Below, one piece after another: positions 1 through 11,975 of a stretch of 12,503 nucleotides of DNA. Each line of letters opens with the position of its first letter. Within the stretch, counting starts at the first letter, position 1. Made by a program: the position numbers and the translations under genes. The notes under the pieces were generated by a model, which was not told the DNA's origin, did no database searches, and saw nothing but the letters and a program-made list of their open reading frames with translations. Source of the stretch: DASVDK01 sp036562265 [NCBI: Thermodesulfobacteriota bacterium] (lineage in GTDB: Bacteria > DASVDK01); NCBI GenBank assembly GCA_036562265.1, contig DATCKS010000274.1, positions 1 to 12,503 on the forward strand, given 5' to 3'.

Positions 1-273
1 ACGCTTCACCGCCTGGCGGGGCGACTCGCCCTCCCCCTCGCCCTGCTCGAACGGTACCGGATGATCGAGCTCCTCTTCGAGGGGGCCGCGCGGTTCGGCC
101 AGCTCCCGGCGCTCCTCGAGTTGCTCGAAGCCGAGGCGCGAGCGGCCGGCGCCTACTACGCCGCCCGCGCCGCCGAGCACCCAGGGGCCGCCGCCGCCCT
201 GGACGGCTGGACCGCACGGGCCGCGGCGACCGCGGACGCCCTGCTCGCGATGCGCCGCGAAGCCGCCCGCTGA
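1..273 (+). CDS. 3' end of an unknown helical protein (partial)
   Basis: The frame is open from the first base of the window to a TGA at 271-273, giving about 90 visible residues; the true start lies upstream, and the ATG at 61 is only an internal methionine. The visible part is rich in alanine, leucine, glutamate and arginine and should be almost entirely alpha-helical, with no membrane segment, no cysteine and no motif I recognise. Its stop is followed after 6 nt by the ATG of the TauE/SafE permease, so the two are probably co-transcribed. I do not recognise the family. Codon third positions are mostly G or C, as in the neighbouring genes, which supports real coding. Confidence 0.6.
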   Translation, partial: TLHRLAGRLALPLALLERYRMIELLFEGAARFGQLPALLELLEAEARAAGAYYAARAAEHPGAAAALDGWTARAAATADALLAMRREAAR

Positions 274-279
274 CCCACC

Positions 280-1092
280 ATGCTCACGCTCGTCGCCATC
301 GGGCTCGTCACCGGCATCGCGTCGGGCCTGCTCGGCGTCGGGGGCGGCTTCATCCTGGTGCCGCTCCTCTCGGCGCTCGCCGTCCCGCTCCACGCCGTCA
401 TCGGCGCGAGCCTCGTCTTCGTCCTCGCCACCTCGGTCTCCGGAGCCCTGCGGCACCTGCGCCAGGGCACGGCCGACTGGCGGCTCGGCCTTCCCCTCAT
501 GGCGGCCTCGGCCGCGACGGCGGCCTTCGGCTCCGCCGTCAGCGTGAGCCTTCCGGACCGGGTCCTCGGCTGGCTCTTCGCCGCGGTGACCGCGCTCGCC
601 CTGGTGCTCTTCAACCTGCCTCGACCCACCCCCCGCGAGCGTCCGGCCGGCCGCGCGGGCCGCTTCGTCGTCACGCGGGTGCAGGTCGCCGGGGAGGAAC
701 GGTACGCCTACTCGTACTCGCTCGTCGGCGCGCTCCTCGTCGGCGCCGGCATCGGGGGCGTGACCGGCCTCCTCGGGATCGGCGGCGGCTTCCTCCTCGT
801 GCCGCTGCTCGTCGTCCTGCTCGGCATCCCTCTTCCGATCGCCATCGGGACGTCGCTCCTGTCGATCCTCGCCGCCGCGATCGCCGGCATCGCGACGCAC
901 TGGACCCTCCTCGGCGTCGACCCGGCCCTCGTGGGGCCGCTCGTGGCGGCGGGCGTCATCGGCGCGCAGGCGGGCGCGCGCCTCGTGGTGTGGCTGCCGC
1001 GGGCGCGGCTCCGGGTCCTCTACAACGCGCTGCTCGTCGGCGCGACGCTCTACATGGCGGTGCGCGCCGGGCTCGGCCCGGCGGCGGGCTAG
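280..1092 (+). CDS. TauE/SafE family anion exporter (membrane permease)
   Basis: A 270-residue polytopic inner-membrane protein. The family (TauE/SafE, formerly DUF81) exports or imports small organic or sulfur-containing anions such as sulfoacetate, sulfite or related compounds. The internal duplication typical of the family is plain: GLLGVGGGFILVPLL at about residues 17-31 recurs as GLLGIGGGFLLVPLL near residue 163. Each copy opens a half of roughly four hydrophobic segments, and a polar arginine-rich loop around residues 108-135 separates the halves. Length is normal. The ATG at 280 gives an immediate hydrophobic first helix; I see no Shine-Dalgarno, and translation may be coupled to the gene ending 6 nt upstream. 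It converges on metX, with only 21 bp between the stops. The substrate cannot be read from sequence; the nearby sulfur-related genes only hint at a sulfur compound. Confidence 0.93.
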   Translation: MLTLVAIGLVTGIASGLLGVGGGFILVPLLSALAVPLHAVIGASLVFVLATSVSGALRHLRQGTADWRLGLPLMAASAATAAFGSAVSVSLPDRVLGWLFAAVTALALVLFNLPRPTPRERPAGRAGRFVVTRVQVAGEERYAYSYSLVGALLVGAGIGGVTGLLGIGGGFLLVPLLVVLLGIPLPIAIGTSLLSILAAAIAGIATHWTLLGVDPALVGPLVAAGVIGAQAGARLVVWLPRARLRVLYNALLVGATLYMAVRAGLGPAAG

Positions 1093-1113
1093 GCGACGGT
1101 CCCGCGATCGGCG

Positions 1114-2334
1114 CTAGTTGCCGGGGACGCGACGGCGCGCGGCCAGCACCGCGCCGAGGAAGTCGCGGACGAGCGGCCCCTGCTCCTCGGCCTCGAGGAG
1201 GAACGCGTCGTGGCCGTATGCGGAGCGCACCTCGTGCCGCTCCACCTGCATCCCGCGTACGGAAAGGGCCGTGGCGATCTCGTACGACTGCTCCGTCGGG
1301 TAGAGCCAGTCGGAGGTGAAGGAGAGGACGAGGGCGCGCTTGCCCTCGAGGACGCCCCGCAGCGCGCGGTCGACCGCGGCGATCTCCTCGTGCCAGTCGA
1401 ACGTGTCGAGGGCGTTGGTGATGTAGAGGTAGGAGTTCGGGTCGAAACGGTTCACGAACGCCTGACCCTGGTGGTCGAGGTAGTGTTCGACCTCGAAGGT
1501 CGGGCGGAACTTCTCGCGCGGTCCCCGCTGCCGGCGCCCGAAGCGCTTCTCCATGGCCTCGCTCGACAGGTACGTGATGTGGCCGAGCATCCGGGCCACC
1601 GCGAGCCCCTTGCCGGGAGTCGGCCCCCCGTAGTAGTCGCCGTCGTTCCAGTTCGGATCGGAGGTGATCGCGCGCCGCCCGACCTCGTTGAAGGCGATCT
1701 GCATGGCGGTGTGGCGCAGGCACGAGGCCGAGACGACGACGGAATCGACGCGGTTCGGGTACGAGGCGAGCCACTGGAGCGCCTGCATCCCGCCCATCGA
1801 TCCGCCGGCCACGCAGAGGAGGCGCTCGATGCCGAGCGCGGAGACGACGCGAGCCTGGACGTCGACCATGTCGCGGATCGTCACGAGCGGGAAACGGAGC
1901 GCGTAGGGCCGGCCGGTCGTCGGGTCGATGCTCGACGGACCGGTCGTGCCGTAGCACGAGCCGAGGACGTTCGTGCAGACGACGAAGTACCGCGACGTGT
2001 CGAACGGCTTGCCCGGCCCGATCATGACGTCCCACCACCCCGGCTTCCGGTCGGTCGGGCTCGAGTAGCCGGCCGCGTGCGCCCCGCCCGAGAGGGCGTG
2101 GGCCACGAGGATGGCGTTGTCGCGGGCGGGTGAGAGCGTGCCGTAGGTCTCGTAGGCCACCGTGACCGAGGGGAGGACGTCGCCGGACTGGCAGCGGAAC
2201 GGGCCGTCGAGCGTGATGTGATGCGTCGTGACCAGGCCGACGGAGTGCGGATCGCCGGCCCGGTCCACCCCAGGTGCCTCTTCGCGGGGGACCTCGTCGG
2301 CGGTCGAACGACCTGATTCCTCGGCGCGCGGCAT
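1114..2334 (-). CDS. metX: Homoserine O-acetyltransferase (MetX family)
   Basis: An alpha/beta-hydrolase-fold acyltransferase of 406 residues that activates homoserine as its O-acyl (usually acetyl) ester for methionine synthesis by direct sulfhydrylation. Family marks: YETYGTL near residue 61, HALSGGAH at 79-86, NVLGSCYGTTGP at 122-133, and the nucleophile elbow GGSMGGMQALQW with Ser179. The rest of the triad is Asp342 in FTSDWLYP and His375 in YGHDAFLLE. The catalytic domain begins around residue 35; the first 30 or so residues are an acidic, low-complexity extension compared with usual MetX proteins of about 370-380 residues. The ATG at 2334 is favoured because a promoter-like pair lies just upstream; the frame stays open much further but that part overlaps the phosphatase gene. 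It lies 32 bp downstream of the phosphatase gene. The choice of acetyl rather than succinyl donor is inferred from the family name. Confidence 0.95.
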   Translation of the reverse strand: MPRAEESGRSTADEVPREEAPGVDRAGDPHSVGLVTTHHITLDGPFRCQSGDVLPSVTVAYETYGTLSPARDNAILVAHALSGGAHAAGYSSPTDRKPGWWDVMIGPGKPFDTSRYFVVCTNVLGSCYGTTGPSSIDPTTGRPYALRFPLVTIRDMVDVQARVVSALGIERLLCVAGGSMGGMQALQWLASYPNRVDSVVVSASCLRHTAMQIAFNEVGRRAITSDPNWNDGDYYGGPTPGKGLAVARMLGHITYLSSEAMEKRFGRRQRGPREKFRPTFEVEHYLDHQGQAFVNRFDPNSYLYITNALDTFDWHEEIAAVDRALRGVLEGKRALVLSFTSDWLYPTEQSYEIATALSVRGMQVERHEVRSAYGHDAFLLEAEEQGPLVRDFLGAVLAARRRVPGN

Positions 2335-2341
2335 GCGCGCG

Positions 2342-2370
2342 AGGGTACCACGCGGCGCGACGCGACTCAA
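2342..2370 (-). promoter_or_regulatory. Candidate promoter of metX
   Basis: On the minus strand TTGAGT (2370-2365) is followed after exactly 17 nt by TACCCT (2347-2342), then 7 nt and the metX ATG. The -35 element overlaps the stop codon of the upstream phosphatase gene. If active it would start transcription at or next to the ATG, giving a leaderless metX mRNA independent of the upstream gene. Only partial matches to the sigma70 consensus, so moderate confidence. Confidence 0.4.
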
Positions 2371-3269
2371 CGGGCCGACGACTCCCCGAAGGCGGCGACG
2401 AGCGCGTCGTGGACGCGACCGTTCGAGACGATGAGGCCCCGCCGCCAGGTCGGGTCGTCGGTCTCGAAGGTGAGCGCCGCGCCCGACAGGTCGGTGATCC
2501 GCCCGCCGGCCTCCTCGACGATCACCGAGGGGCCGACCAGATCCCACACCGACGTCTGCAGGCTCGCCGAGGCGTAGGCGTCGGCGCTCCCCTGCGCGAC
2601 GAGGACCGCCTTGAGCCCGAGGCTGCCGACCTGGATCAGGGTGCGATGGGGCAGCGCGGCAAGCCGCTCGAGGAAGCCCTCGCGGTGCCGGCTCTTGCCG
2701 ACGAGGAGGCGCGCCGCCTCGAGGGTGCGCACCTCGCTGACGTGCAGGGCCGATGGGCCTTTGTCCTCCTCGGTCACGCTCCCCTCGACGCCGGCGAGCG
2801 GCTCCTGCCACGCCCCGCCGCCGCTCGACGCCCAGTAGATCTTCGGCGAGCCCTGGTCCGGGGGCGGCAGCGGCCGCGCCGCGACGCCGAGGACCGGGCG
2901 GCCGCCGAAGGTGGCGCCGAGGAGGACCATCCACTGTCCGGTCCCGGCCACGAAGTCGCCGGTGCCGTCGATCGGATCGACGAACCAGCACCACCCGCCC
3001 GGCGTGCCGCGCAGCCCCCCCTCCTCGCCGACGATCGGCGTGCCGGGGTCGGCCTCGGCGAGCCGGCGGACGAAGAGGTCGTTGATCTCGCGGTCGACGG
3101 CGGTGACCGGCGTCTGGTCCGCCTTCACCTCCGCGACGACCTGGCCGGCGCGCCAGCGGCGCACCGCCACCTGCGCCGCCTCGCCGACGAGGCGGCGTGC
3201 GAGCGCGACGCGCCGGGCAAGCTCGGCGGGGTCGGGCGGCACCGCGGGCGGAACGGCCGGGTCGGACAT
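2367..3269 (-). CDS. Inositol-monophosphatase family phosphatase, CysQ-like
   Basis: A 300-residue metal-dependent phosphomonoesterase of the IMPase/FBPase/CysQ fold. The metal and catalytic motifs are all present: GEE at 81-83, DPIDGT at 98-103 followed by GDF, and SVWD with Asp243 ahead of EEAGGRITDLSG at 252-263. DQTPVTAVDRE near 51-61 corresponds to the conserved segment before the first metal motif. Substrates in this family include inositol monophosphate, 3'-phosphoadenosine 5'-phosphate (CysQ), histidinol phosphate and fructose bisphosphate; the sequence alone does not decide. The metX gene immediately downstream makes a CysQ-like role in sulfur assimilation attractive but unproven. 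A proline-rich stretch occupies the first 14 residues, and an insertion at about 130-175 is longer than in short IMPases. The ATG at 3269 is chosen because a -10-like hexamer sits 6 nt before it. Confidence 0.9.
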   Translation of the reverse strand: MSDPAVPPAVPPDPAELARRVALARRLVGEAAQVAVRRWRAGQVVAEVKADQTPVTAVDREINDLFVRRLAEADPGTPIVGEEGGLRGTPGGWCWFVDPIDGTGDFVAGTGQWMVLLGATFGGRPVLGVAARPLPPPDQGSPKIYWASSGGGAWQEPLAGVEGSVTEEDKGPSALHVSEVRTLEAARLLVGKSRHREGFLERLAALPHRTLIQVGSLGLKAVLVAQGSADAYASASLQTSVWDLVGPSVIVEEAGGRITDLSGAALTFETDDPTWRRGLIVSNGRVHDALVAAFGESSAR

Positions 3270-3275
3270 GTGACG

Positions 3276-3281
3276 AGCATA
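3276..3281 (-). promoter_or_regulatory. Candidate -10 element for the phosphatase gene (leaderless)
   Basis: The minus strand carries TATGCT at 3281-3276, separated by exactly 6 nt from the ATG at 3269. That places the expected +1 on the A of the start codon. No Shine-Dalgarno is visible and no good -35 hexamer lies 16-18 nt upstream, where a small hairpin (CCGGC 3294-3298 with GCCGG 3305-3309) sits instead. Confidence 0.3.
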
Positions 3282-3634
3282 GCAGAGGCGTTCCCGGCTT
3301 TTTCGCCGGCCACGCCCCCCTCACGCGAGGGATGGGTGTGCGGTCACGGACCGGAGCGCGCCGGCGCGGCCGACGCCCCCTCGCGGTCGCCTCCTTCACA
3401 TGGGAGATGGGAGACGGCAACGGAAGACGGCCAGGCTCGGGCGTCGTGGAGCGGGCAAGACCGGCCGTCGCCGAGCCGGCGGCTCAGGCGCTCGCGGATA
3501 CGCCGGTACAGGCGGCGCGCACCGAAGCCAGGCGGGCGAGCCTCCTCGCCCGGTGGCGGCCGCGCCGCCTCCCGCACGTGGCGTTCGGCTCCCCATCGGC
3601 CGAGCCGTCGGCGCCGCACGGCAGGTCGCCGCGA

Positions 3635-3654
3635 GCCGGCGCCGTCGCGCCGGC
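3635..3654 (-). terminator. Hairpin after the response-regulator gene, possible terminator
   Basis: A perfect 8-bp GC stem (GCCGGCGC at 3635-3642, GCGCCGGC at 3647-3654) with a 4-nt loop begins 16 nt after the stop codon of the response regulator. No T-tract follows on the minus strand, so it is not a canonical rho-independent terminator. It may stabilise the mRNA 3' end or act with Rho. Confidence 0.3.
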
Positions 3655-3670
3655 CGCCGCGTGCTGCTCG

Positions 3671-4321
3671 TCAGGCGTTCGAGGGGGCGGTCGACGGGGA
3701 CGAGGACGAGGAGGCGGAGTTCGTGGTGCGGGCGAAGCCGCCCCGACGACGGAAGTCCTCCTTGCGCAAACCGTACGCGCGCATCTTCTCGTAGAGCGTC
3801 TTCGCGTTCACCCCGGCGCGACGCGCGGTCGCCCCGAGGTGCCCCCGCTCCTCCGTCAGCACGCGGACCAGGTAGTCCCGCTCGAGCTGGCGTACCGCCT
3901 TCTCGCGCATGGCGAGCAGCGGCAGCCCGGTGTCGACCACCGCGACCGGCGCCTGGCGTCGGGCGAGCCCCTTCTGCATCGCCTCGTTGAGCTGCGGCAG
4001 GGAGATCGGCTTGAGGATGACGTCGACGGCGCCCAGGCGGATCGCCTGCAGCGCCTCCTCCGTCGTCGCCGCCCCCGTGATGGCGATGACCGGAAGATCT
4101 GGCCGCTCCTGCTTGAGCGTCCGGAGCAGGTCGGCTCCGCCCTGACCCGGCAGCCGGAGGTCGACCAGGACGATGCTGTACTGGCCGTGGCGCACCATGG
4201 TCAACGCGGTCGCCGCGTCCGAGGCCACCTCCACGTGCTGGCCCGGCGTACGCTCGAGCGCGGTCTTCAGGAAGCTTCGAATGCTCGGGTCGTCGTCGAC
4301 GACGAGGATGTGGGTTTCCAT
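3671..4321 (-). CDS. Response regulator, receiver plus Fis-type HTH (RegA/ActR-like)
   Basis: A 216-residue two-component response regulator. Residues 1-120 form a receiver domain: acidic pair Asp10/Asp11, phospho-acceptor Asp54 in LVDLRLPG, Thr82 in ITG and Lys104 in LKPIS. A linker leads to a Fis-type helix-turn-helix at about 145-190 (ERDYLVRVL, then GHLGATARRAGVNAKTLYEKM), closely resembling the C-terminus of NtrC-class regulators but without the AAA+ sigma54-activating domain. This is the architecture of RegA/PrrA/ActR regulators, which bind DNA without remodelling sigma54 polymerase. The last 17 residues are a low-complexity serine-rich tail. No histidine kinase is in the window, so the partner is unknown. 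The ATG at 4321 begins directly with the receiver. Weak promoter-like hexamers lie just upstream. Confidence 0.92.
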   Translation of the reverse strand: METHILVVDDDPSIRSFLKTALERTPGQHVEVASDAATALTMVRHGQYSIVLVDLRLPGQGGADLLRTLKQERPDLPVIAITGAATTEEALQAIRLGAVDVILKPISLPQLNEAMQKGLARRQAPVAVVDTGLPLLAMREKAVRQLERDYLVRVLTEERGHLGATARRAGVNAKTLYEKMRAYGLRKEDFRRRGGFARTTNSASSSSSPSTAPSNA

Positions 4322-4330
4322 AGCGTCGGG

Positions 4331-4359
4331 AACCTACACCCGGTCGTTTCGGCAGGCAA
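4331..4359 (-). promoter_or_regulatory. Weak candidate promoter of the response regulator
   Basis: On the minus strand TTGCCT (4359-4354) and TAGGTT (4336-4331) are separated by 17 nt, with 9 nt from the -10 to the ATG at 4321. No Shine-Dalgarno is apparent. The matches are poor (TTGxCx and TAxxxT only), so this is a suggestion based mainly on spacing. Confidence 0.25.
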
Positions 4360-4596
4360 GCAAATTCTTAGTCAGCAGGCGCCCGACTGCCGTATCAGGT
4401 GACCCGATTGATGCGAGCCGGCCCGAGAACGCGGCGAAAACGGGGCCATATGGCCCGAGTCCGGCCCCTGCGGGCCGACGGTCCCGGGCGGCGACGGGCG
4501 GGAGCGCTGCGGGGCCAAATGCCGGCCGCCGCAGAAAAATGTCGCCGGTCTTCGCCTCAAAGGCCTTGACACCGCATAAGTTGTCGTCAATTCACC

Positions 4597-4649
4597 ATAA
4601 TTTAGTTTCACAACGCGCGTTGACAGCCCATTCGGGCTCCCCGTAGTAT
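4597..4649 (+). promoter_or_regulatory. Strong sigma70-type promoter with UP-like AT tract, for the small RNA
   Basis: A consensus TTGACA at 4620-4625 and TAGTAT at 4644-4649 are separated by 18 nt. Immediately upstream, 4597-4610 is almost pure A/T in an otherwise very GC-rich window, at the position of an RNA-polymerase alpha-subunit UP element. Expected start is near 4656. No protein gene follows on this strand; the transcript runs into a strong terminator about 150 nt later. A second TTGACA at 4566-4571 has no properly spaced -10. Confidence 0.75.
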
Positions 4650-4655
4650 GGACCC

Positions 4656-4815
4656 TGCTCGCCGGGCAGCCCGAGGTCCGTATATCCCCGCACTCGCTCC
4701 GCGGGGGGCCCGAGGGACTCTTCCTACGGCGAGATCCTTCGTTTCGGCCACATGCCGGCCCCTGGCCGGCCCCGACGCGCCCCGACCCGGCGTACGCCGG
4801 GTCGGGGCTTTTTTT
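4656..4815 (+). ncRNA. Stand-alone structured small RNA, family not recognised
   Basis: Defined by a strong promoter (start near 4656) and a perfect terminator (T-tract ending 4815), giving about 160 nt. The predicted 5' half is an irregular rod: CUCGCCG (4658-4664) pairs with CGGCGAG (4727-4733). Inside it GAGGUCC (4673-4679) pairs imperfectly with GGGACUC (4714-4720), and the tip is CCCCGC (4686-4691) with GCGGGG (4701-4706) around a 9-nt loop. A second hairpin, GCCGGCC/GGCCGGC (4754-4770), precedes the terminator. The octamer GCCCGAGG occurs twice, at 4669-4676 and 4708-4715. The only ORF across it (ATG at 4648) overlaps the -10 element and reads straight through the terminator, so it is not coding. 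It lacks SRP RNA, tmRNA, RNase P and tRNA signatures. Length and an interrupted rod recall 6S RNA, but the pairing does not span the whole transcript. Confidence 0.65.
4779..4815 (+). terminator. Rho-independent terminator of the small RNA
   Basis: A perfect 13-bp stem (4779-4791 with 4796-4808) around a GTAC loop is followed directly by seven Ts (4809-4815). The T-tract is on the plus strand only, so it terminates the plus-strand small RNA rather than the minus-strand peroxiredoxin gene that ends at 4841. Confidence 0.93.
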
Positions 4816-4840
4816 GTGCCTGCGCCGTCGAGGGAAACGG

Positions 4841-5353
4841 TCACTGGCCGCCGCACGCGCGCAGCGCCGCGGTCGGGTCCATCGCGCGCGCGCCGGTGTG
4901 GATCTCGATCACGCGGCCGTCGGGGTCGATGACGAAGGTGGTCCGCCTGGGGAAACCGAAGACGGGGTCGTAGACGCCGTATCGCCGCGCGACCGCGGCG
5001 TCGGAGTCGGCGAGGAGCGGATAGCTGAGCGAGAGGCTCCGCGCGAACGCGCGCACCTCGGATTCCGGGTCGGTGGCGACGCCCAGCACCTGGGCACGGG
5101 CCGCCGCGAACCGCGACGCGAGATCGCGGTACCCGGCGAGCTCCTGCGCTCAGCCGCCGGTGAAGCTCTTGACGATGAAGGCGAGGACGACGGGGCGCCC
5201 GCGGAAGTCGCCGAGCCGGACGGTGCGGCCGTCCTGGTCGCGCAAGGCGAAGTCGGGTGCGACGTCCCCCACCCTCACCGGGCCGTCCGCGGCCGCCGGG
5301 CCGGCGATCAGCGCGGCGGCAACGAGGCCGAGCAGGACGGCCCGGCGCGTCAT
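4841..5353 (-). CDS. Exported selenocysteine-containing peroxiredoxin (AhpC/TSA family), TGA = Sec68
   Basis: Read through one in-frame TGA (5152-5150) as selenocysteine, this is a 170-residue thioredoxin-fold peroxiredoxin that should reduce peroxides outside the cytoplasm. Residues 1-23 form a signal peptide (MTRR, hydrophobic core, AAA/DG cleavage). VGDVAPDFALRDQDG (28-42), RGRPVVLAFIVKSFTGG (51-67), then Sec68 and AQELAGYRD follow the family pattern: T65-G-G-U68 replaces the TxxC peroxidatic motif. Downstream GVATD (91-95), YPLLADSD (111-118) and RRTTFVIDPDG (136-146, with the conserved arginine) continue without a frameshift. The only cysteine, Cys167 near the C-terminus, may resolve the selenenic acid. 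The ATG overlaps the nitroreductase stop as ATGA, implying coupling. A SECIS-like hairpin follows the TGA. The alternative, a Cys-to-stop mutation making a pseudogene, is less likely because the stop is TGA, sits at the catalytic residue, and is followed by that hairpin. Confidence 0.85.
5116..5149 (-). promoter_or_regulatory. Bacterial SECIS-like element after the UGA codon
   Basis: Starting 6 nt after the UGA, GAGCUCGC (5143-5136) pairs with GCGAUCUC (5127-5120) with a single C-U mismatch. The 8-nt apical loop CGGGUACC (5135-5128) contains GGU with a G among its first two bases. A lower helix, GCGC (5149-5146) with GCGU (5119-5116), extends it. The loop starts 14 nt after the UGA, slightly nearer than the usual bacterial range. 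Such an element would bind SelB with Sec-tRNA to recode the stop. Confidence 0.65.
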
Positions 5354-5910
5354 TCGGTCAGGAAGCGGACCCGCTCCTCGAGCGGGCGCCGGGTTTGCGG
5401 CGGCGCGGGCGCGGCGGGGAAGCCGAGGAAGACGGCCGCCACGAGCTTGGCGTCGGCAGGGATCTCGAGGAACGCCTTGACGGCCGGGTGCTCGCACGGC
5501 ACCCCCGTGCGCCAGATCGCCCCGAGCCCTTCGGCGTGCGCCGCCAGGAGCAGGTTCTGCACGGCGCAGCAGGCGGCCGCGTAGTTCTCCTCGCTGTCGT
5601 GCGGCGTCTCCGCGGCGAAGGTCTGGACGAAGACGACGGCCGGCGTGTTGCGGATCCGCTCGGCGGTCGTCTGGAGCTTGCCCCGGGCCTTGTCGCCGCC
5701 GGGGTCCGTACGCGCCGCCTCGAGCAACCGGTCGGCGAGTCGGGCGCGCGCGTCGCCTTCCACCACGTGGAAGAACCAGGGCTCGTTGTGCCGGTGGTTG
5801 GGGGCCCAGGTGGCGGCCTCGAGGATGGTCCGCAGCTTCCCCTTCGGGATCGGGTCGGCGCAGTAGACGGCGATGCTGCGCCGGGTCCGGATCGCGTCGA
5901 GGACGTCCAC
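5350..5910 (-). CDS. Nitroreductase family FMN oxidoreductase (YdjA-like)
   Basis: A 186-residue single-domain flavoprotein, normal length for the small nitroreductases. The N-terminal FMN phosphate-binding signature RTRRSIAVY (8-16) and WAPNHRHNEPWFFHVV (35-50) are characteristic of the YdjA-type branch. EENYAAACCAVQNLLLAAHAEGLGAIWRTG, in the third quarter, forms the conserved dimer helix and second flavin contact. It would use NAD(P)H to reduce nitro compounds, quinones or other electrophiles; the physiological substrate is unknown. No signal peptide, so cytoplasmic. The GTG start at 5910 is well supported by AAGGAGG with good spacing. Its TGA overlaps the ATG of the selenocysteine peroxiredoxin, making a two-gene redox operon. 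A sigma70-like promoter lies upstream at 5980-6009. Confidence 0.93.
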   Translation of the reverse strand: MDVLDAIRTRRSIAVYCADPIPKGKLRTILEAATWAPNHRHNEPWFFHVVEGDARARLADRLLEAARTDPGGDKARGKLQTTAERIRNTPAVVFVQTFAAETPHDSEENYAAACCAVQNLLLAAHAEGLGAIWRTGVPCEHPAVKAFLEIPADAKLVAAVFLGFPAAPAPPQTRRPLEERVRFLTE

Positions 5911-5947
5911 GCGTCGCCTCCTTCACGGGGAGAGGAACACGGCGACA

Positions 5948-5962
5948 CGGCATCGGATGCCG
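5948..5962. promoter_or_regulatory. 15-bp dyad in the nitroreductase leader
   Basis: CGGCATC and GATGCCG flank a single central G, a near-perfect palindrome lying between the expected transcription start (about 5973) and the Shine-Dalgarno of the nitroreductase. It could be an operator for a repressor of this operon or a small leader hairpin. No regulator gene adjoins it. Confidence 0.35.
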
Positions 5963-5979
5963 GCGCCGCCGCCGCGTGA

Positions 5980-6009
5980 ACGGTACCGACCCCGCCCGCC
6001 GGCTGTCAA
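5980..6009 (-). promoter_or_regulatory. Promoter of the nitroreductase-selenoperoxiredoxin operon
   Basis: On the minus strand a consensus TTGACA (6009-6004) is followed after 18 nt by TACCGT (5985-5980). The expected start near 5973 leaves a leader of about 60 nt carrying a dyad and a strong Shine-Dalgarno. It lies in the 111-bp gap after the HEAT-protein stop, so the redox pair is probably transcribed separately from the genes upstream. Confidence 0.6.
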
Positions 6010-6021
6010 TCGGACGCTGCG

Positions 6022-7074
6022 TCAGCCGTCCTCGCGCCTGCCGCGCGCGTCGGTCCCGTCGTCGGCCTCGTCCGCCTCCTCGGCGTCCTCCTCGTCGGGT
6101 GCCGTCGCCGCCTCCTCGAAGATGGCGACGATCTCGGCCGCCTTGGCGCGCACCGCGGGGTCGGGATCGGCAAGCGCCCTGCGCGCGGCCTCCTCCCCCG
6201 CCCGGCCTCCGAGCTGCTCGCCGAGCGCCTCGACCGCGGCGAGCCGCTCCTGGGGCGACGGACTCGACAGCGCCTGCTCGGCGGCGGCGATCGCGGCCTC
6301 GCGGCCGGCCGTGGCGACGAGCGCGGCGAGCGCCGCCCAGCGAATCTGCAGGTCGGGGTCGGTGAGCGCCGCGTGGCGCAGCGCGTCGGGCGAGGCGAGC
6401 TGCGTCGCCTCGGCCACCTCGAGCGCCCGCTGCCGCACGGCCGGGTTGGGGTCGGCGATGAGCGCGTCGAGTTCCGCGCCGGCGCCGGCCGGCGCCGAGG
6501 GACCGAGCCGGGCGAGCGCGGCGAGCCGCGCCTCCGTCTCGGGCGGCAGCGACGGGTCCGACGGCACCGTCCCGTCCTCGGCCGCGTCTCCGGTCCGGCC
6601 GGGGCCGTCGGTCGACGGCGCCGCCGGCCGTGTGGTCGCCGCCGGCCGCGTGGTCTCCGGCGACCGCTCCGCCTCGGCGGGCGGATAGACGACGACCTTC
6701 TCGAGCCTGGGCGGTCCCCCACCCGGGCGCGGCCGGTAGACGAACGCGACGTTGAAGGGGCGCAGCAGGCGGCGCAACGCCCGCTCGAACGTGAGGCCGC
6801 GGAACCGGTCGGACACCTCGCGTGCGACCGAGCCGTGGACGGACACCGCCACGCCGGTCTCGGCCTGGATCGCGTCGAGCACCGCCGGCAGCGGCGCCTC
6901 GTCGAGGGCGACCGAGAGCCGGCCGCGAACGGCCTGGACCCAGAGCGATGCCGCGTCGGGGGCGGCGCCGCCCGGCCCGCGATTCGCGGACAGGGCGGCG
7001 CCCGTCGGCATTACCAGTGTGCCGATCGCCGCCAGCGCGAGCGCGCGGGCGGCTCGGCCATGTCGCCGGACCAT
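6022..7074 (-). CDS. Secreted STN-domain plus HEAT-repeat protein
   Basis: A 350-residue protein with an N-terminal hydrophobic segment (about 7-30) that looks like a signal peptide. Residues 51-113 match an STN (secretin/TonB short N-terminal) domain: LSVALDEAPLPAVLDAI, then GVAVSVHGSVA, then LTFERALRRLL. A low-complexity Pro/Thr/Ala linker (about 132-178) leads to a HEAT-like helical repeat region at 200-322, where units such as ADPNPAVRQRALEVA, TDPDLQIRWAALAAL and ADPDPAVRAKAAEIV recur about every 30 residues. The C-terminus is a strongly acidic tail (321-340). No beta-barrel or secretin domain follows the STN domain. It is probably a periplasmic adaptor that binds partner proteins; the partners are unknown. 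The ATG at 7074 is 5 nt after the stop of the EEP gene, with AGGTGG just upstream, so they form an operon. Confidence 0.8.
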   Translation of the reverse strand: MVRRHGRAARALALAAIGTLVMPTGAALSANRGPGGAAPDAASLWVQAVRGRLSVALDEAPLPAVLDAIQAETGVAVSVHGSVAREVSDRFRGLTFERALRRLLRPFNVAFVYRPRPGGGPPRLEKVVVYPPAEAERSPETTRPAATTRPAAPSTDGPGRTGDAAEDGTVPSDPSLPPETEARLAALARLGPSAPAGAGAELDALIADPNPAVRQRALEVAEATQLASPDALRHAALTDPDLQIRWAALAALVATAGREAAIAAAEQALSSPSPQERLAAVEALGEQLGGRAGEEAARRALADPDPAVRAKAAEIVAIFEEAATAPDEEDAEEADEADDGTDARGRREDG

Positions 7075-7079
7075 TCCAC

Positions 7080-7895
7080 CTAGTGGACCGAGAACCGGGT
7101 GACGACCGGCCTGTGGTCGGAAACCCAGGTCTGGATCACGCGGGCCGACTGCGGCTTCGCCCGCCCGCGGTAGAGGACGTAGTCGATGCGGGCGTTGCGC
7201 GTCGCCCCCTTGCCCTTGCCGACCTGCTCCCAGCTGTCCTTCACGACGCCGCCGAGCACCTTGAGCGGCGCCTTGCCCGGCTTGTCGTTCATGTCGCCGG
7301 TCACGAAGATCGCCGGCGTCCGGTCCTTGCGGATGATGTCCGCCACGCGCCGCGCCTGGGCCGCCCGCTTGCCCGTCGACCCCGAGTCGAGGTGGACGGT
7401 GTAGACGGCGACCGGGCCGCCGGGCGCCTTGATGGCGGCGCGGGCGAGGCCGCGCGAGTACGGGAGCTTGTACGCGTCGGCGCGGGAGATCGGGTAGCGG
7501 CTCACGATCAGGACGCCCTCCTGACGCGGCGTGCTCGTGACGTGCTTGCAGTGCTTCGAGCTCTGACGCGCGCTCGTGTTGGCGGCGTAGGCCCAGTACC
7601 ACCGGTCACCGGTGTAGCGCTGGAGCGCGCTCACGAGCTTCTTCGGCTGGTCGACGCATCCGTAGTCGCCCTTCTTCGCGACGCGGGCGAACCGGCGCAC
7701 CTGCTGAAGACCGGCCACGTCGGCGCCGCTCGAGGCGATCACCTTGGCGATGGCGTCGAGGCGTTTGCCGCTCGGGGCACCCCAGTTGATGTTGTAGGAC
7801 ATCACGTCGAGGTTGGCGGCCGCCGCGTGCGTCGCGAGGGCCGGTGCGAGCCACGCCGCGATGACGGCGGCGGCAAGGAGCCTGCGGAACGACAT
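7080..7895 (-). CDS. Secreted endonuclease/exonuclease/phosphatase (EEP) family protein
   Basis: A 271-residue member of the DNase I/APE1/sphingomyelinase-like metal-dependent superfamily. Residues 1-27 are a signal peptide (MSFRRLL, hydrophobic core, HAAAA). Superfamily motifs appear in order: MSYNINWG with Asn35, AGLQQVRR at 61-68, TVHLDSGS with His168, GDMND with Asp201/Asn203, RIDYVLYRG with Asp238, and SDHRPV with Asp260/His261. The metal-binding glutamate normally found in LQE(V/T) is a glutamine here (Q65), which may lower or alter activity. Three cysteines fall in the exported part (80, 116 and one nearer the N-terminal half if present); disulfides are possible. The substrate could be nucleic acid or a phosphoester. 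The ATG at 7895 follows GGGAGGA; the frame stays open upstream to 8015, but that would bury the signal peptide. Confidence 0.88.
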   Translation of the reverse strand: MSFRRLLAAAVIAAWLAPALATHAAAANLDVMSYNINWGAPSGKRLDAIAKVIASSGADVAGLQQVRRFARVAKKGDYGCVDQPKKLVSALQRYTGDRWYWAYAANTSARQSSKHCKHVTSTPRQEGVLIVSRYPISRADAYKLPYSRGLARAAIKAPGGPVAVYTVHLDSGSTGKRAAQARRVADIIRKDRTPAIFVTGDMNDKPGKAPLKVLGGVVKDSWEQVGKGKGATRNARIDYVLYRGRAKPQSARVIQTWVSDHRPVVTRFSVH

Positions 7896-8104
7896 GATGG
7901 CGAATCCTCCCTTGTTTCGGGTTGGTGTCCGCTCTACCACGGAGCGGCCCGGTCCCCCGGCATCGGGGTGCGGAATGTCGGTTGGCCTCCTTTGCAGGTT
8001 CGGGTTGTCGGCCATTCGTGCGGGTGGTTCACCGCACGGACCAGTCGAACGGTGCGCAGGATGCCAGACGGTCGTGTGTCGGTCTGTGTTTCAAATTACG
8101 TTCT

Positions 8105-8128
8105 AACCAGGCGAGGCCTTGCCTGGTT
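8105..8128. repeat. 24-bp dyad symmetry upstream of the EEP gene
   Basis: AACCAGGC (8105-8112) and GCCTGGTT (8121-8128) are exact inverted repeats, and the 8-nt centre holds a further palindrome AGGCCT flanked by G and T. As DNA it is an almost complete 24-bp palindrome suited to a dimeric regulator. As RNA it could fold into a 10-12 bp hairpin. No T-tract follows on either strand, so it is not a rho-independent terminator. It lies 210 bp upstream of the EEP start. Confidence 0.5.
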
Positions 8129-8499
8129 CTCGTATCCAATCTATGAATCGGAAAGGCGTGCGGCGTTCTATTCGGGAACCGTCGGGAGGATCCGGCAAGG
8201 CAATTGCCGCGCGCGACCGCCCTTCAGCCGCGGCACGTCGCGCGCCCGGCGGCGCGTCGCGCGTGGCGCCTCTCGGCGAGGCGAAAGGCGCGTCGAGGCA
8301 GACCCGACGCGGCGATCCGCGTCGCGGCCGTCGCACGGCATCACGGCGGCCGCCCACCCGTCACCTCGACGGCCGCTCGGTCGTCCGGCTGCACGGCGTC
8401 CGACATCTGAACGGCGTTATGACGTCGTCCCGGTTCGAGGTCGCGGTCCGGGTGGCCACCGCACCGTACGCCCCTTCCGGCCGCGTGCAGATTTTTTTC

Positions 8500-8518
8500 G
8501 CGGCGCGTCACGCGCCGC
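8500..8518 (-). terminator. Hairpin directly after the outer-membrane protein stop
   Basis: A perfect 8-bp stem (GCGGCGCG / CGCGCCGC on the minus strand) with a 3-nt loop begins on the base after the stop codon. It is followed on the minus strand by a run of seven As rather than Ts. It therefore lacks the tract needed for intrinsic termination and may serve as a 3'-end stabiliser. Confidence 0.35.
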
Positions 8519-9394
8519 TCACCGGCGGGGTGTGCTCGCGGCCCCGTTCGGCCGGCCCCAGGTCCGGCCGAAGCCGGGTAGATCGAACCGGTAGGTCGCT
8601 CCAAGGGCGATGCCCCAGTCGCGTGACAGCTCGCCGGTCGCGCCGAGAGGGCGCGAGCCGTTGAAGCCCATGGACGCCGACAGATCGAGCCCGAGCCGCC
8701 CCCGCGTCCAGCGCAGGCCGGCCCGTCCCTCGGCGAGTTCGAAGGCCGGGGCGTTCGTCGTCTGCCCGTAGTACTCGACGAAGGGGGTCACGCCGCCCGG
8801 CAGGTCGACGAGGAGGGCGGCGCTGTACGCCCACGCATCGGTTTGCGCCAGCGGATCGGTGGGGCTCTCGATGATCAGGAGCCCTCCGGACAGGCGCACC
8901 TCCACCGGGCCGACGCGTGGGGTGACGAGGCCGAGCATCGAGAAGTCGGTGTTGTTGGTGCCGAGCCGTTCCCGGGCGGAGGCGTTCGGCAGCTTCACCC
9001 CCAGCCGGATCGCGGTCGGCGGGAGCACGGAGGGGCTCCCGTCGTCGTCGAGTCCGTCGAGCAGGCGCAGCTTGCCGAAGAGGTAGAGGTCGCCGGTGCC
9101 GTTGGTGTCACGCATGTCGCGTGACTCCCGCCACAGCCAGCGGTACGTCGCCGAGAACTCGGCGATCCCCGCGATCCCGAGCCGGGAGCTGAGCACGGGC
9201 GCGGAGGTGAGCGTCTCCTGGCCTGGCAGACGCACGTGCTCGACGCCGACGCCGGCAAGCACCTCCCCCGAGTCGACCACGTTGGCGGTGTCGGTGCCCA
9301 GCGGGCGATCGACGACGGCGAGGTTCTGCGCGTACGCGGGAGCGGCGTAGGCCAGGCACGAGAGGAGAAGCACGAGAAGGCCGAGCGGGCGCAT
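8519..9394 (-). CDS. Predicted outer-membrane beta-barrel protein
   Basis: A 291-residue protein with a clear signal peptide (MRPLG, hydrophobic core, AYA/Q cleavage near residue 22). The mature part alternates polar and hydrophobic residues in about a dozen candidate amphipathic strands with aromatic girdles, for example AEFSATYRWLWRES, TGDLYLFGKLRLL, VEVRLSGGLLII, TPFVEYYGQ and WGIALGATYRFDLPGFG. The periodicity is typical of 10-12 strand barrels. It resembles the loosely defined transporter (phenol MetA-like) families, but I cannot assign a substrate. A Cys at 13 in LLLSC is a possible lipobox but would leave too short a signal. The C-terminus extends past the last strand with a basic, unstructured tail rather than ending in phenylalanine. 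A TGC-TACTAG stretch lies 6 nt before the ATG at 9394 and no Shine-Dalgarno is seen. Confidence 0.78.
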   Translation of the reverse strand: MRPLGLLVLLLSCLAYAAPAYAQNLAVVDRPLGTDTANVVDSGEVLAGVGVEHVRLPGQETLTSAPVLSSRLGIAGIAEFSATYRWLWRESRDMRDTNGTGDLYLFGKLRLLDGLDDDGSPSVLPPTAIRLGVKLPNASARERLGTNNTDFSMLGLVTPRVGPVEVRLSGGLLIIESPTDPLAQTDAWAYSAALLVDLPGGVTPFVEYYGQTTNAPAFELAEGRAGLRWTRGRLGLDLSASMGFNGSRPLGATGELSRDWGIALGATYRFDLPGFGRTWGRPNGAASTPRR

Positions 9395-9400
9395 GCTGCA

Positions 9401-9406
9401 CTAGTA
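9401..9406 (-). promoter_or_regulatory. Weak -10-like element before the outer-membrane gene
   Basis: TACTAG, preceded by TGC as in an extended -10 element, lies exactly 6 nt before the ATG at 9394 on the minus strand. The last position deviates from TAnnnT and no convincing -35 is seen. Listed because the spacing matches the other leaderless candidates in this window. Confidence 0.2.
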
Positions 9407-9441
9407 GCACACGCCCGACGGTCCATCGACCGGTCGAGGCG

Positions 9442-9819
9442 CTAGTCGCCGGAGTGTCCCTCCCGCATGCCGCGCGCGAGCCCCGTTCGCGGCACGTCGA
9501 GCGTTGCCGGCACGAATGCCTGGCTCCTGGGCAGGACGATCGTCAGCACGCCGTTGCCGAAGGTCACGTTCGCGGTCCGCCCGTCGACCGGCGAAGGCAG
9601 CTTGACCGATCGGTGATAGGGCCCATAGGTCCACTCGTGGTGCAGATAGCGCTTGTCGGCGTCCTCGCCGCGCGCGTCCGACTCCATCGTGAGTGTGTCC
9701 CCCTCCACGCGCACGGTGATGTCCTCGGGCTCGATGCCGGGCATGGGGGCCACGACGACGAGTTCCTCGTCGGTCTCGAAGGCGTTGATCGGCAGCTCGC
9801 GTCGCTCCGGCACGTCCAT
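9442..9819 (-). CDS. Small heat-shock protein, Hsp20/alpha-crystallin family
   Basis: A 125-residue small heat-shock protein, an ATP-independent holdase that binds unfolding proteins. The alpha-crystallin domain covers about residues 10-100: INAFETDEELVVVAPMPGIEPEDITVRVEGDTLTM, then YGPYHRSVKLP, and the hallmark FGNGVLTIVLPR at 87-98. The N-terminal arm is only about 10 residues and the C-terminal extension lacks a perfect IxI motif (LDV at 107-109 is the nearest), so oligomer size may be small. The ATG at 9819 is preceded by a strong GGAGGT at ideal spacing; the frame stays open 63 nt further upstream but without support. The leader can form alternative hairpins next to the Shine-Dalgarno. 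It lies 93 bp downstream of the acetyltransferase gene on the same strand. Confidence 0.95.
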   Translation of the reverse strand: MDVPERRELPINAFETDEELVVVAPMPGIEPEDITVRVEGDTLTMESDARGEDADKRYLHHEWTYGPYHRSVKLPSPVDGRTANVTFGNGVLTIVLPRSQAFVPATLDVPRTGLARGMREGHSGD

Positions 9820-9825
9820 GGCGCG

Positions 9826-9883
9826 ACCTCCGTGATCTCTCGTGGCCAGGGGAGCCACGCCTCTGTCGTGCGGATCACGCACG
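9826..9883 (-). promoter_or_regulatory. hsp20 leader with two mutually exclusive hairpins, candidate thermosensor
   Basis: Structure A: CGUGAUC (9879-9873) pairs over 35 nt with GAUCACG (9837-9831), enclosing CGUGGC/GCCACG (9859-9854 with 9846-9841). Its last base pair uses the first G of the Shine-Dalgarno GGAGGT (9831-9826). Structure B: CGUGCG/CGCACG (9883-9878 with 9872-9867) traps UGAUC in its loop and cannot coexist with A. Small heat-shock genes are often controlled by RNA thermometers; this is not a ROSE or fourU element, so the role is inference. Confidence 0.4.
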
Positions 9884-9912
9884 GCGCATGCCAGCGGCGC
9901 GGCGAGGCGCGC

Positions 9913-10545
9913 TCAGGCGACCGCGCGCAGGGGGAGCGGGAGGACCGAGGGAGGCGGCTGGCCGGTCCTGCGGCGCACGGCCAACCGGCGCCATCGCCAG
10001 AGCCGGACGTACCGGATGTCCGCCACGCGCTCGAAGCCGGCCTTCTCGAGGCCGCGGAGCGAGGGGGCGTTGTCGGCGCGTGCGGCGATCCAGACCCGCG
10101 TGACCCCCGAGCCGGCCAGGTCGCGCGCGATCGCGCCGAGGAGCGCGGGATAGAGCCCGCGACCGCGATAGGCCGGCAACGTGGCGCAGTCCCAGATGTA
10201 GGCCTCGCTCGGGCCCACCCGGATGCGCCCCTCGACCTCGGCGATCTCCTCGTCGCCCCGGGTCACCCATCCGTAGGCCAGGATGCCGGGCGGTCCCTCC
10301 ACGACGTAGGCGCGCCGCCCGCTGGCCAGACGCGCGTCGATCTCCGGCTCCGGCGTCGGGGCCATGGCCGCGGCGAGGCCACGCCGCCTGGGCGAGCCTG
10401 CCGGCTCGCGATCGGTCACGCAGGCAACCGCGAGACCGGGCGGCAGTGACGGCGCTGCCGGCGGCTCGCGGTCGAGGTCGCGTCCCCAGAGCTCGACGTG
10501 GCAGGCGTGGAAGAGCCGACGGGGCAGCAGGGCGGAGAGGATCAT
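9913..10545 (-). CDS. GNAT-family N-acetyltransferase
   Basis: A 210-residue acyl-CoA-dependent acetyltransferase. The GNAT core spans about residues 78-178: AYVVEGPPGILAYGWVT (79-95), SEAYIWDCATLPAYRGRGLYPALLGAI with the pyrophosphate-binding loop YRGRGL at 126-131, and VWIAARADNAPSLRGLEKAGFERV (151-174) for motif B. The N-terminal 75 residues are less conserved and include HACHVELWGRDL, often seen in GNATs fused or linked to polysaccharide-type metabolism, though I cannot identify the substrate. The C-terminal tail is basic and proline-rich. The ATG overlaps the stop of the small helical gene upstream (ATGA), so translation is probably coupled. Confidence 0.9.
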   Translation of the reverse strand: MILSALLPRRLFHACHVELWGRDLDREPPAAPSLPPGLAVACVTDREPAGSPRRRGLAAAMAPTPEPEIDARLASGRRAYVVEGPPGILAYGWVTRGDEEIAEVEGRIRVGPSEAYIWDCATLPAYRGRGLYPALLGAIARDLAGSGVTRVWIAARADNAPSLRGLEKAGFERVADIRYVRLWRWRRLAVRRRTGQPPPSVLPLPLRAVA

Positions 10546-10775
10546 CGCCGCCCGGCGCGGACCGCGACCTCGAGCCGGCGCACGCGCGCGGCGAGCGCGT
10601 CGGCGGCCCTGGCGCGCGACGCGCGCAGCCCGGCCGTGGCCCGCGTTGCCACGTCGATCACGGTCGCCGCGGCGCGTCGTGGGCCCTCGTGCCGCAGCAC
10701 GCCGCCGTAGAGGTCGTCGAGCATCGCCATCGCTTCGTCGATCGCGCGCTCGCTCGGTCGGTCGGCGCGTCGCAC
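10542..10775 (-). CDS. Small helical protein of unknown function
   Basis: A 77-residue arginine- and alanine-rich protein predicted to be helical throughout, with segments AIDEAMAMLDDLYGGVL and LAARVRRLEVAVRAG that could form amphipathic helices or a short coiled coil. Third codon positions are nearly all G or C, as in neighbouring genes. I chose a GTG start at 10775; the frame is open to 10850, but that part overlaps the divergent PHB-type regulator and its promoter. Its stop overlaps the acetyltransferase start by ATGA. It has no recognised domain. Being divergent from a PHB-accumulation-type DNA-binding protein by 40 bp, it might be a phasin-like or granule-associated protein, but nothing in the sequence proves this. 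Confidence 0.55.
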   Translation of the reverse strand: MRRADRPSERAIDEAMAMLDDLYGGVLRHEGPRRAAATVIDVATRATAGLRASRARAADALAARVRRLEVAVRAGRR

Positions 10776-10780
10776 GTTCG

Positions 10781-10809
10781 TTGACCTGCCTCGGGCGGCG
10801 TGGTAGCGT
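10781..10809 (+). promoter_or_regulatory. Promoter of the PHB-accumulation-type regulator (leaderless)
   Basis: TTGACC (10781-10786) and TAGCGT (10804-10809) are separated by 17 nt, and 6 nt separate the -10 from the ATG at 10816, so the expected +1 is the A of the start codon. There is no room for a Shine-Dalgarno. The -35 overlaps the leader of the divergent small gene. Confidence 0.6.
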
Positions 10810-10815
10810 CGCGGC

Positions 10816-11253
10816 ATGGTGACCATCCGTCGGTATCGGAACAATCGCAAACTCTATGATACCGCCCGGAGTCGCTACGTGACCCTCCAGGACGTCGCCG
10901 CGCTCGTCCGGCGCGGCGAGCCGCTGCGCGTCATCGACAGCGAGAGCGGCGAGGACCTGACGGCCGCGACCTTCGCCCAGATCCTGTTCGAGTCGGAGCG
11001 GGTGCGCGCCCGCCTCTCCCCGGCCGTCCTGGCCGACCTGATCCGCGGCGCCGGCCGATCGACCGACGGCCGCACGGCCGCGATGCCTCGCGCCACCCGG
11101 GCCCGCGTCCGCGAGATCCTCGAGCGGGCCGTTGCCGACGCCCCCCTGACCCGCCGCCTGGCCGCGCTCGAGGCCCGGGTCGCGGCGCTCGAGAACGCCA
11201 TCCGCCAGCAGGCGCGAGGCGGAGGCGCCCGCCGCCGGACGCGCGCCCGCTAG
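10816..11253 (+). CDS. PHB/PHA accumulation regulator DNA-binding-domain protein (PhaR-like)
   Basis: A 145-residue protein whose first 60 residues are a clear PHB_acc_N domain: IRRYRNNRKLYDTARSRYVTL (4-24), QDVAALVRRGEPLRVIDSESGEDLT (25-49) and AATFAQILFE (50-59). In PhaR proteins this domain binds both DNA and polyhydroxyalkanoate and represses phasin genes until granules form. The middle is variable, with an arginine-rich segment (about 80-98). The C-terminus (112-135) is a short leucine-heptad coiled coil (RLAALEARVAALENAI) followed by a basic tail, instead of the PHB_acc second domain of classical PhaR. It may thus be a simplified regulator. The ATG at 10816 sits right after a promoter. 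It converges on the VTT-domain gene with 10 bp between stops. Confidence 0.85.
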   Translation: MVTIRRYRNNRKLYDTARSRYVTLQDVAALVRRGEPLRVIDSESGEDLTAATFAQILFESERVRARLSPAVLADLIRGAGRSTDGRTAAMPRATRARVREILERAVADAPLTRRLAALEARVAALENAIRQQARGGGARRRTRAR

Positions 11254-11263
11254 CCCCCTCCCC

Positions 11264-11971
11264 TTACGCTCCCGGCCCCGCTTGCCGTCCTTTCGCCCGG
11301 TGCGCGGGGCGGCGCCTGAGCGCCCGTCCGAGCAGCCACGCCGCCGCCGTCACGGCGAGCACGCCGAAGAGGATGTCCACGGTGTCGGCCGCCCGGCCGC
11401 CGAACCACGAGTAGAGCGCGGTCGCGGGGAGCTGCCCGAGGCCGGTGCCGAGCAGGAAGCGGCCCTGGGACATCGCCGTGAGCCCGGCCGCGTACGAGAT
11501 CGGGTCGAACGGGACGAAGGGGACGAGGCGCGCCACGACGATCGCCTGGACGCCGTAGCGGCGGAAGAAGGCGTCGGCCGTCCCCAGCGCCGCCCGGCCG
11601 ACGAGTCGCTCGGCCGCCGGCCGGCCGAGCGACCGGGAGATGCCGAAGCAGACCCAGGCGCCGACCAGGGCGCTCGACCACGACAGGAGCCCGCCCAGGA
11701 CGGGCCCGAAGACGAGGCCGTTCGCGAGCGTGATGACGAACGCCGGCAGGGGCGCGATGATCGCCTGCGCGACCATGAGGAGGGCGGAGACGGCGGCCGC
11801 CCAGGGACCGAAGTCGAGCAGGTAGGCACGCAGGCCCTGCGTGTCGCCCGCGAGGAGGAGACCACCCACGATGCCGGCCGCCTCTCGCAGCGGTGGGACC
11901 GCCAGCACCGCGCCCGCCGCGACCGCGGCCGGGACGAGCGCGTAGAGCGCACGCCGGGCGGCCGGCCCCAC
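11264..11971 (-). CDS. TVP38/TMEM64 (VTT/DedA-superfamily) inner-membrane protein
   Basis: A 235-residue integral membrane protein with about five to six hydrophobic segments. The VTT-domain signature is clear: PLPAFVITLANGLVFGPVLGGLLSW, followed by GAWVCFGISRSLGRPAAERLVG. Then come FFRRYGVQAIVVARLVPFVPFDPISYAAG with the conserved re-entrant-loop arginine and prolines, and GTGLGQLPATALYSWFGG. Members of the wider DedA/VTT superfamily act in lipid flipping or membrane homeostasis; for this TVP38 branch the role is not settled. The basic C-terminal tail (RRRPAHRAKGRQ) is expected in the cytoplasm. The GTG start at 11971 is 4 nt after the molybdopterin-synthase stop, with no Shine-Dalgarno, so translation is probably coupled. 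Confidence 0.88.
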   Translation of the reverse strand: MGPAARRALYALVPAAVAAGAVLAVPPLREAAGIVGGLLLAGDTQGLRAYLLDFGPWAAAVSALLMVAQAIIAPLPAFVITLANGLVFGPVLGGLLSWSSALVGAWVCFGISRSLGRPAAERLVGRAALGTADAFFRRYGVQAIVVARLVPFVPFDPISYAAGLTAMSQGRFLLGTGLGQLPATALYSWFGGRAADTVDILFGVLAVTAAAWLLGRALRRRPAHRAKGRQAGPGA

Positions 11972-11975
11972 GAGG

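Follow-up and report, generated by a model that had tools for sequence, protein, structure and literature searches.

Peroxiredoxins with selenocysteine (Sec) in a TxxU motif have already been described. In the available portion of a 2026 review (PMC13188914), peroxiredoxin (PF00578, TxxU) is listed over the heading 'Predicted with high confidence' and is supplied with a biochemical reference from 2001; the review also cites a Methylomirabilota genome for which 63 selenoprotein genes were predicted. Excerpts of two other articles report 43 Sec peroxiredoxins with TxxU from the Sargasso Sea (PMC1088965) and four selenoproteins in three families from Acidobacteria (PMC1794560). The stretch of DNA analysed here, of 12,503 nt and hereafter called the window, carries a gene for which a sequence-only reading had proposed a Sec-for-Cys selenoprotein. 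The homologues support that exchange, with the correction that, according to the excerpts of PMC13188914 and PMC1088965, Sec peroxiredoxins with TxxU constitute an established family.

With the described PrxU family (PF00578, TxxU; PrxU of Eubacterium acidaminophilum, as presented in the same partial sources), the window protein shares the AhpC/TSA fold and Sec at the peroxidatic position. It differs from that family in a signal-peptide-like N-terminus, in a lone Cys about 99 residues after Sec and in Val at the place of the motif Pro, and it scored 59.3 bits against the PrxU model NF040737, whose cut-off is 270; no NCBIfam model passed its cut-off for the window protein or for its homologue L001. 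Among known structures, the best match of its model was BcpB of Mycobacterium tuberculosis, a Cys protein (PDB 5epf; Z 25.0, rmsd 1.7, 146 aligned residues), and the 1-Cys peroxiredoxin AhpE of the same species (1xxu; Z 24.2, rmsd 1.7, 146 aligned) was among others tied within 1. In PrxQ/Bcp proteins the resolving Cys lies at +5 from the peroxidatic residue, whereas the only Cys of the window protein lies at +99. What looks new is an exported subfamily whose members carry a single C-terminal Cys and have often lost the motif Pro. Such a subfamily was not found in the titles and abstract openings of literature on selenoproteins of Rokubacteria/Methylomirabilota and Acidobacteria and on periplasmic or Sec peroxiredoxins, and the term 'signal peptide' had no occurrence in the available text of PMC13188914, PMC1088965, PMC1794560, PMC12013277, PMC9312934 and PMC5029168.

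The coordinates of the locus are given in Table 1. The frame runs on the minus strand from 5353 to 4841, with 67 codons, the TGA at 5152-5150 and 102 further codons up to a second TGA. The sequence-only reading had described it as a peroxiredoxin frame with that TGA as its sole interruption, placed exactly at the TxxC cysteine (T65-G-G-stop68) and followed by 102 collinear codons that include the conserved Arg. All of this was borne out, since the position of the TGA can be read off the frame, the read-through product matches Pfam AhpC-TSA over residues 28-150 (E 4.9e-37), and the Arg is R137, the same in all 156 aligned rows. Cys167 is, as had been stated, the only Cys codon of the frame. GC at codon positions 1/2/3 is 0.75/0.56/0.94 downstream of the TGA versus 0.79/0.54/0.97 upstream, and the downstream stretch is thus coding-like by codon-position GC; the window as a whole (1-12503) has 73.6% G+C, with third-position GC of 0.95-0.97 in the four genes checked. 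Additionally, the signal peptide noticed earlier was recovered as a prediction from hydropathy and by eye, the best 12-residue mean hydropathy of the N-terminus being 2.9, followed by A-A-A-D (motif by eye).

Table 1. Positions of the peroxiredoxin gene, its key residues and adjacent features in the window.
Feature	Position	Strand	Basis or remark
Sec-peroxiredoxin gene	4841..5353	-	170 codons + stop, one internal TGA read through
TGA read as Sec68, peroxidatic position	5150..5152	-	TGA aligned with the TxxC Cys of homologues
Thr65 of TxxU	5159..5161	-	T in 49/49 rows of the Acidobacteria-phylum group
Arg137, active-site Arg	4943..4945	-	R in 156/156 aligned rows
Cys167, candidate resolving Cys	4853..4855	-	+99 from Sec68, directly after the last helix (160-166)
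Val61 where the motif PxxxTxxC has Pro	5171..5173	-	Motif comparison of aligned rows
Predicted signal peptide, residues 1-23	5285..5353	-	Hydropathy; outside the Pfam domain; cleavage site by eye
Candidate SECIS hairpin	5124..5139	-	13-28 nt from T of TGA; position as in Rokuibacteriota-phylum relatives
Nitroreductase-family gene	5350..5910	-	Upstream; stop overlaps the peroxiredoxin start (ATGA, 5353-5350)

A scan of genome contigs returned 14 loci, the best of which (L001) had TGA at the same codon, the other 13 having Cys. In the following, the Rokuibacteriota phylum is the phylum of the L001 genome, which we take to be Methylomirabilota in GTDB, and the Acidobacteria phylum is that of the L006 genome. 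The former gave matches at E 1e-15 in 79 of 95 genomes and, among the matches listed, most had one TGA; the latter gave a match at E 1e-22 in 170 of 396 sampled genomes. The best match was stronger in the Acidobacteria phylum (E 2.6e-41) than in the Rokuibacteriota phylum (8.2e-34), and the best Acidobacteria-phylum matches, with one TGA each, extended to residue 167-168. Among the matches listed, the nearest relatives of the window peroxiredoxin also belong to the Acidobacteria phylum, at no more than 50% identity; after Sec, the window and its best relative are identical at 45 of 102 residues. One of the best 80 Acidobacteria-phylum matches, L228, has a TAG near the start of the matched stretch.

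The codon comparison drew on 90 of the Rokuibacteriota-phylum matches listed (best first, some skipped) and on the best 80 of the Acidobacteria-phylum matches listed, the last 20 of which do not enter the tree, motif and SECIS counts. The alignment comprised 156 rows including the window, that is, 164 minus L009-L014, L048 and L120, whose redox motifs are different; L001 and L020 are one and the same gene. L048 and L120 are thioredoxin-like proteins with UxxC (TWUPNC, YWUPFC), in which Sec lies three residues before the aligned site. At the Sec68 codon, the 156 rows had TGA in 123 cases, TGC in 27, TGT in six and nothing else, and 20 further matches had TGA, TGC and TGT in six, 13 and one, respectively. 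A chance TGA is excluded, since homologues show only TGA, TGC or TGT at this codon. The comparison with Cys homologues proposed by the sequence-only reading thus aligned Cys with the TGA in 33 of the 156 rows, and such a correspondence between an in-frame UGA and the redox Cys of homologous proteins is what characterizes bacterial selenoproteins. Furthermore, as many relatives keep the TGA at exactly the same place, the gene is most likely whole and not broken. Under the standard code, the TGA as a true stop would yield a 67-residue exported fragment and perhaps a re-start at GTG 5089 (82 aa). Neither of these products would contain the Arg together with the peroxidatic site, and the two halves are collinear in homologues, which makes termination at this codon extremely unlikely.

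Regarding the decoding machinery, selB exceeded the cut-off in 84 of 95 Rokuibacteriota-phylum genomes and in 254 of 396 Acidobacteria-phylum genomes, and in two of 14 control genomes (E. coli and M. jannaschii). It was found in 47 of the 48 genomes that supply the 49 lone-C-terminal-Cys rows described below, G371 being the one without it, and also in five genomes of the last-added rows. Compared with the rest of the 396, this enrichment gave a Fisher p of 3.8e-9, a value computed over related genomes that are not independent, and the commoner occurrence of selB in genomes with the gene also argues against a true stop. A tRNA-Sec exceeded the cut-off in 79 of 95 Rokuibacteriota-phylum genomes and in 19 of the 20 genomes of L150-L169 (all except G434), with a model less specific than that of selB, since it exceeded its cut-off in five of the 14 controls. 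Within the 12,503 nt of the window, there was no tRNA gene and no Rfam match at gathering; with E up to 10, three Rfam matches appeared, all far below gathering. We infer that UGA is decoded as Sec in the window's organism. A changed genetic code, in which UGA is read as Trp or Cys, is a scarcely credible alternative: the protein sequence alone does not separate it from Sec, and Cys occupies the site in 33 of 156 rows, but the relatives carry selB and tRNA-Sec, and TGA serves as a stop elsewhere in the window, because the peroxiredoxin and nitroreductase frames both end at it.

The best 80 Acidobacteria-phylum matches listed were sorted by the position of the next Cys, since grouping by the TGA itself was to be avoided. 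A lone later Cys at +86 to +105 was found in 54 of them, and all 54 had TGA at the site. TGC or TGT occurred in 22, all with a Cys at +4 or +5; the other four TGA matches were L193, L202 and L224, with Cys at +4/+5, and L199, with Cys at +47. Among the first 49 of these 54 matches, the spacing was +99 in 27, +100 in 15, +105 in three, +97 in two, +104 in one and +86 in one, and in the window it is +99. A hydrophobic N-terminal stretch was present in 47 of these 49 rows, in all 12 exported Sec rows of the Rokuibacteriota phylum and in the window protein. These homologues share the TGA, begin with a hydrophobic stretch and have a single C-terminal Cys at almost the spacing of the window; they therefore uphold the earlier placement of Sec at the peroxidatic position and of Cys167 as the only candidate resolver, and they make export of the protein probable. 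The exported Acidobacteria-phylum Sec peroxiredoxins (L150-L169 and others) resemble the window protein in the TGA, the hydrophobic N-terminus, the lone C-terminal Cys and the Arg, and differ from it in being at most 50% identical and in a stem-loop, 17-38 nt from the TGA, that was not recognised in the window. On the other hand, the exported Rokuibacteriota-phylum Sec peroxiredoxins (L001, L021-L030, L149) share with it the TGA, the hydrophobic N-terminus and the hairpin position, and differ in having no C-terminal Cys at +99: 11 of the 12 lack any Cys beyond Sec, and the remaining row carries one at +91.

Two exported Rokuibacteriota-phylum rows, L031 and L036, have Cys both at the site and at +99 and, as judged from their sequences, are exceptions to a Sec-only subfamily. 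In a tree with the Sec column masked, the window fell in a set of 64 rows, 62 with Sec and two with Cys (L031 and L036), with a support of 3, and within two sets made up of Sec rows only, one of 13 rows (support 65) and one of 25 (support 64). The window is a long branch (0.95) on this masked quick tree, and its place there is unsure. A sequencing error or a very recent nonsense mutation, by which an ordinary Cys peroxiredoxin or a young pseudogene acquired TGA at its Cys codon, would agree with these two rows and with a window in which no Sec machinery is visible (neither a tRNA gene nor an Rfam match). Nevertheless, of the 63 rows that share the window's tree set, 61 have the same TGA, as do all 54 lone-C-terminal-Cys matches among the best 80 listed for the Acidobacteria phylum, the downstream codon bias is intact, and the invariant Arg and the C-terminal Cys are kept, so that such an event is very improbable. 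As a separate observation, the Sec row L224 (KAFTAGUTAEC, Cys at +4) lies among the similar Cys rows L220, L222 and L225 of the Acidobacteria phylum, possibly reflecting another Sec/Cys exchange. Likewise, L040 (WTPGCSKCMP) is a single Cys row in a Sec clade with L098 and L132 (WTPGUSKCMP), and a recent Sec-to-Cys change is possible from this pattern.

With respect to the PxxxTxxC(U) motif, its Pro was kept in all 33 Cys rows and was replaced in 68 of the 123 Sec rows, and the window, with Val61, also departs from it. The link between Sec and Pro loss (68/123 vs 0/33) comprises only three independent pairs on starred branches, too few for significance. The T/SxxC(U) motif and the conserved Arg are both present in the window protein (T65, R137), which also has the domain and the fold of a peroxiredoxin (Pfam E 4.9e-37; Z 25.0 to 5epf). 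The fold and the other residues keep it in the peroxiredoxin superfamily despite Val61.

The AlphaFold2 model, built from nine sequences, had a mean pLDDT of 91.3, with low values confined to the N-terminal end (about 55 over residues 1-20); Cys167 comes next after its last helix, residues 160-166. Taken together, the gene very probably encodes an exported selenoprotein peroxidase with an AhpE/Bcp-like fold, in which UGA specifies Sec at the peroxidatic position. Such an enzyme would be a periplasmic, thiol-dependent peroxidase with Sec68 held beside Thr65 and Arg137. Sec68 would reduce a hydroperoxide and become a selenenic acid, which Cys167 may then attack, within the monomer or with a partner subunit, to form an Se-S bond, and a periplasmic thioredoxin-like or DsbD/TlpA-type protein might restore the reduced form. 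An equivalence of Cys167 with the resolver of human Prx5, which we take to be Cys151, was considered and rejected: model residue 167 ends against residue 161 of 1hd2, and the two were not equated.

The selenoprotein may instead be a one-Sec enzyme whose direct reductant is an external thiol, as in AhpE or in the relatives from the Rokuibacteriota phylum, with Cys167 playing no resolving part. That the exported Sec rows of that phylum have no Cys after Sec in 11 of 12 cases, and one at +91 in the twelfth, is consistent with this, as is the presence of the 1-Cys AhpE among the close structural matches. On the other side stand the lone C-terminal Cys in 54 of the best 80 Acidobacteria-phylum matches and the Cys at +99 in L031 and L036, and we consider the one-Sec form unlikely, if a serious contender. 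With Cys167 as the candidate resolver, a broader proposal can be formulated, which we put forward tentatively and hold to be slightly less likely true than false: an undescribed and widespread clade of exported Sec peroxiredoxins, with a resolving Cys at about +99, in which the switch to Sec relaxed the motif Pro. If this is true, Acidobacteria and their relatives use selenium to remove extracytoplasmic peroxides, and do so through a mechanism with two centres, Sec and Cys. Annotation programs for which every TGA ends a gene would report such genes in pieces or not at all, so that annotation may be hiding, in two large bacterial phyla, an exported defence against peroxides that depends on selenium. 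The one-Sec, Sec plus C-terminal-Cys and few Cys forms of the family represent a natural test of the benefit of Sec to a peroxidase and of the recycling of a selenol that has been exported.

Covariation supports a stem-loop downstream of the TGA in the relatives. In the 38 distinct sequences of the 49 Acidobacteria-phylum rows, it has nine pairs and a loop of three bases and lies 17-38 nt from the T of the TGA. Paired cells amounted to 78.7%, while shuffles gave 69.8% and slid versions no more than 52.3%; cells changed on both sides numbered 28, versus 10.0 in shuffles, with two-sided changes in six pairs. The covariation score was reached by none of 500 shuffles and by no slid version of the 38 sequences, a result partly favoured by the derivation of the structure from the same 38 sequences. 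In the window, synonymous shuffles folded as low as the candidate hairpin in 43% and 50% of cases with the window's codon usage and in 17% with another usage, and the Acidobacteria-phylum covariance model (R1) gave at most 3.1 bits, at the wrong place; that the hairpin is no lower than its shuffles and is missed by the relatives' model counts in favour of the TGA as a true stop. On Rokuibacteriota-phylum loci, R1 gave four matches at the expected offset, mostly weak (E 0.0052, 0.063, 0.63 and 1.7), and two off it.

In folding-energy tests, the Bcp-like Sec group was the only one clearly apart (mean z -2.06; 15 of 18 at 5% or less). The mean z was -1.48 in the exported Rokuibacteriota-phylum rows (1/12), -0.66 in the Acidobacteria-phylum rows (7/49), -0.50 in the Cys rows (3/33) and +0.23 in the 43 other Sec rows (3/43). 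Given these group values, energy is no general separator of Sec from Cys rows, and the SECIS claim is based on covariation in the relatives, neither on energy nor on the window.

With regard to the neighbourhood, translational coupling of the nitroreductase-family gene with the peroxiredoxin gene is likely, since the stop of the former overlaps the start of the latter (ATGA). The sequence-only reading had singled out this pairing; the overlap itself is present in the window, but as a family trait the pairing did not hold, no match being found in the flanks of 73 relatives' loci. In fact, none of nine neighbour proteins of the window matched these 73 loci at E 1e-5 (flanks mostly of 1.5 kb per side); two of these queries, MetX and the inositol phosphatase, did produce matches at other loci. 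The nitroreductase also gave no match at E 1e-30 in 357 Acidobacteria-phylum genomes, a search run without a positive control. MetX was 56-58% identical to its counterparts in three Rokuibacteriota-phylum genomes, with 43% or less in the other matches listed, and 55-59% identical in five of 317 Acidobacteria-phylum genomes, with 47.9-49.2% in 12 plasmid matches listed. When four window proteins were joined into one query, 10 of 95 genomes matched at E 1e-25, with only nine candidates scored per genome and best identities of 47-51% (VTT protein). At a distance of 32 nt beyond the stop of the peroxiredoxin gene, the window has a 13-pair hairpin (4779-4808), whose T7 tail is present on the plus strand only.

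Some Rokuibacteriota-phylum genomes (e.g., G043, G063, G084 and G093) contain up to six peroxiredoxin matches each at E 1e-15, many of them with one TGA and belonging to several distinct subfamilies. A Bcp/PrxQ-like group of that phylum (L032-L035, L037, L038, L041, L042, L044, L045, L090, L092-L094 and L096), with the motif T(P/G/A)GUTAEGC, has peroxidatic Sec, a Cys at +5 and a strong hairpin after the TGA, which presumably resembles the E. coli fdhF SECIS in sequence.
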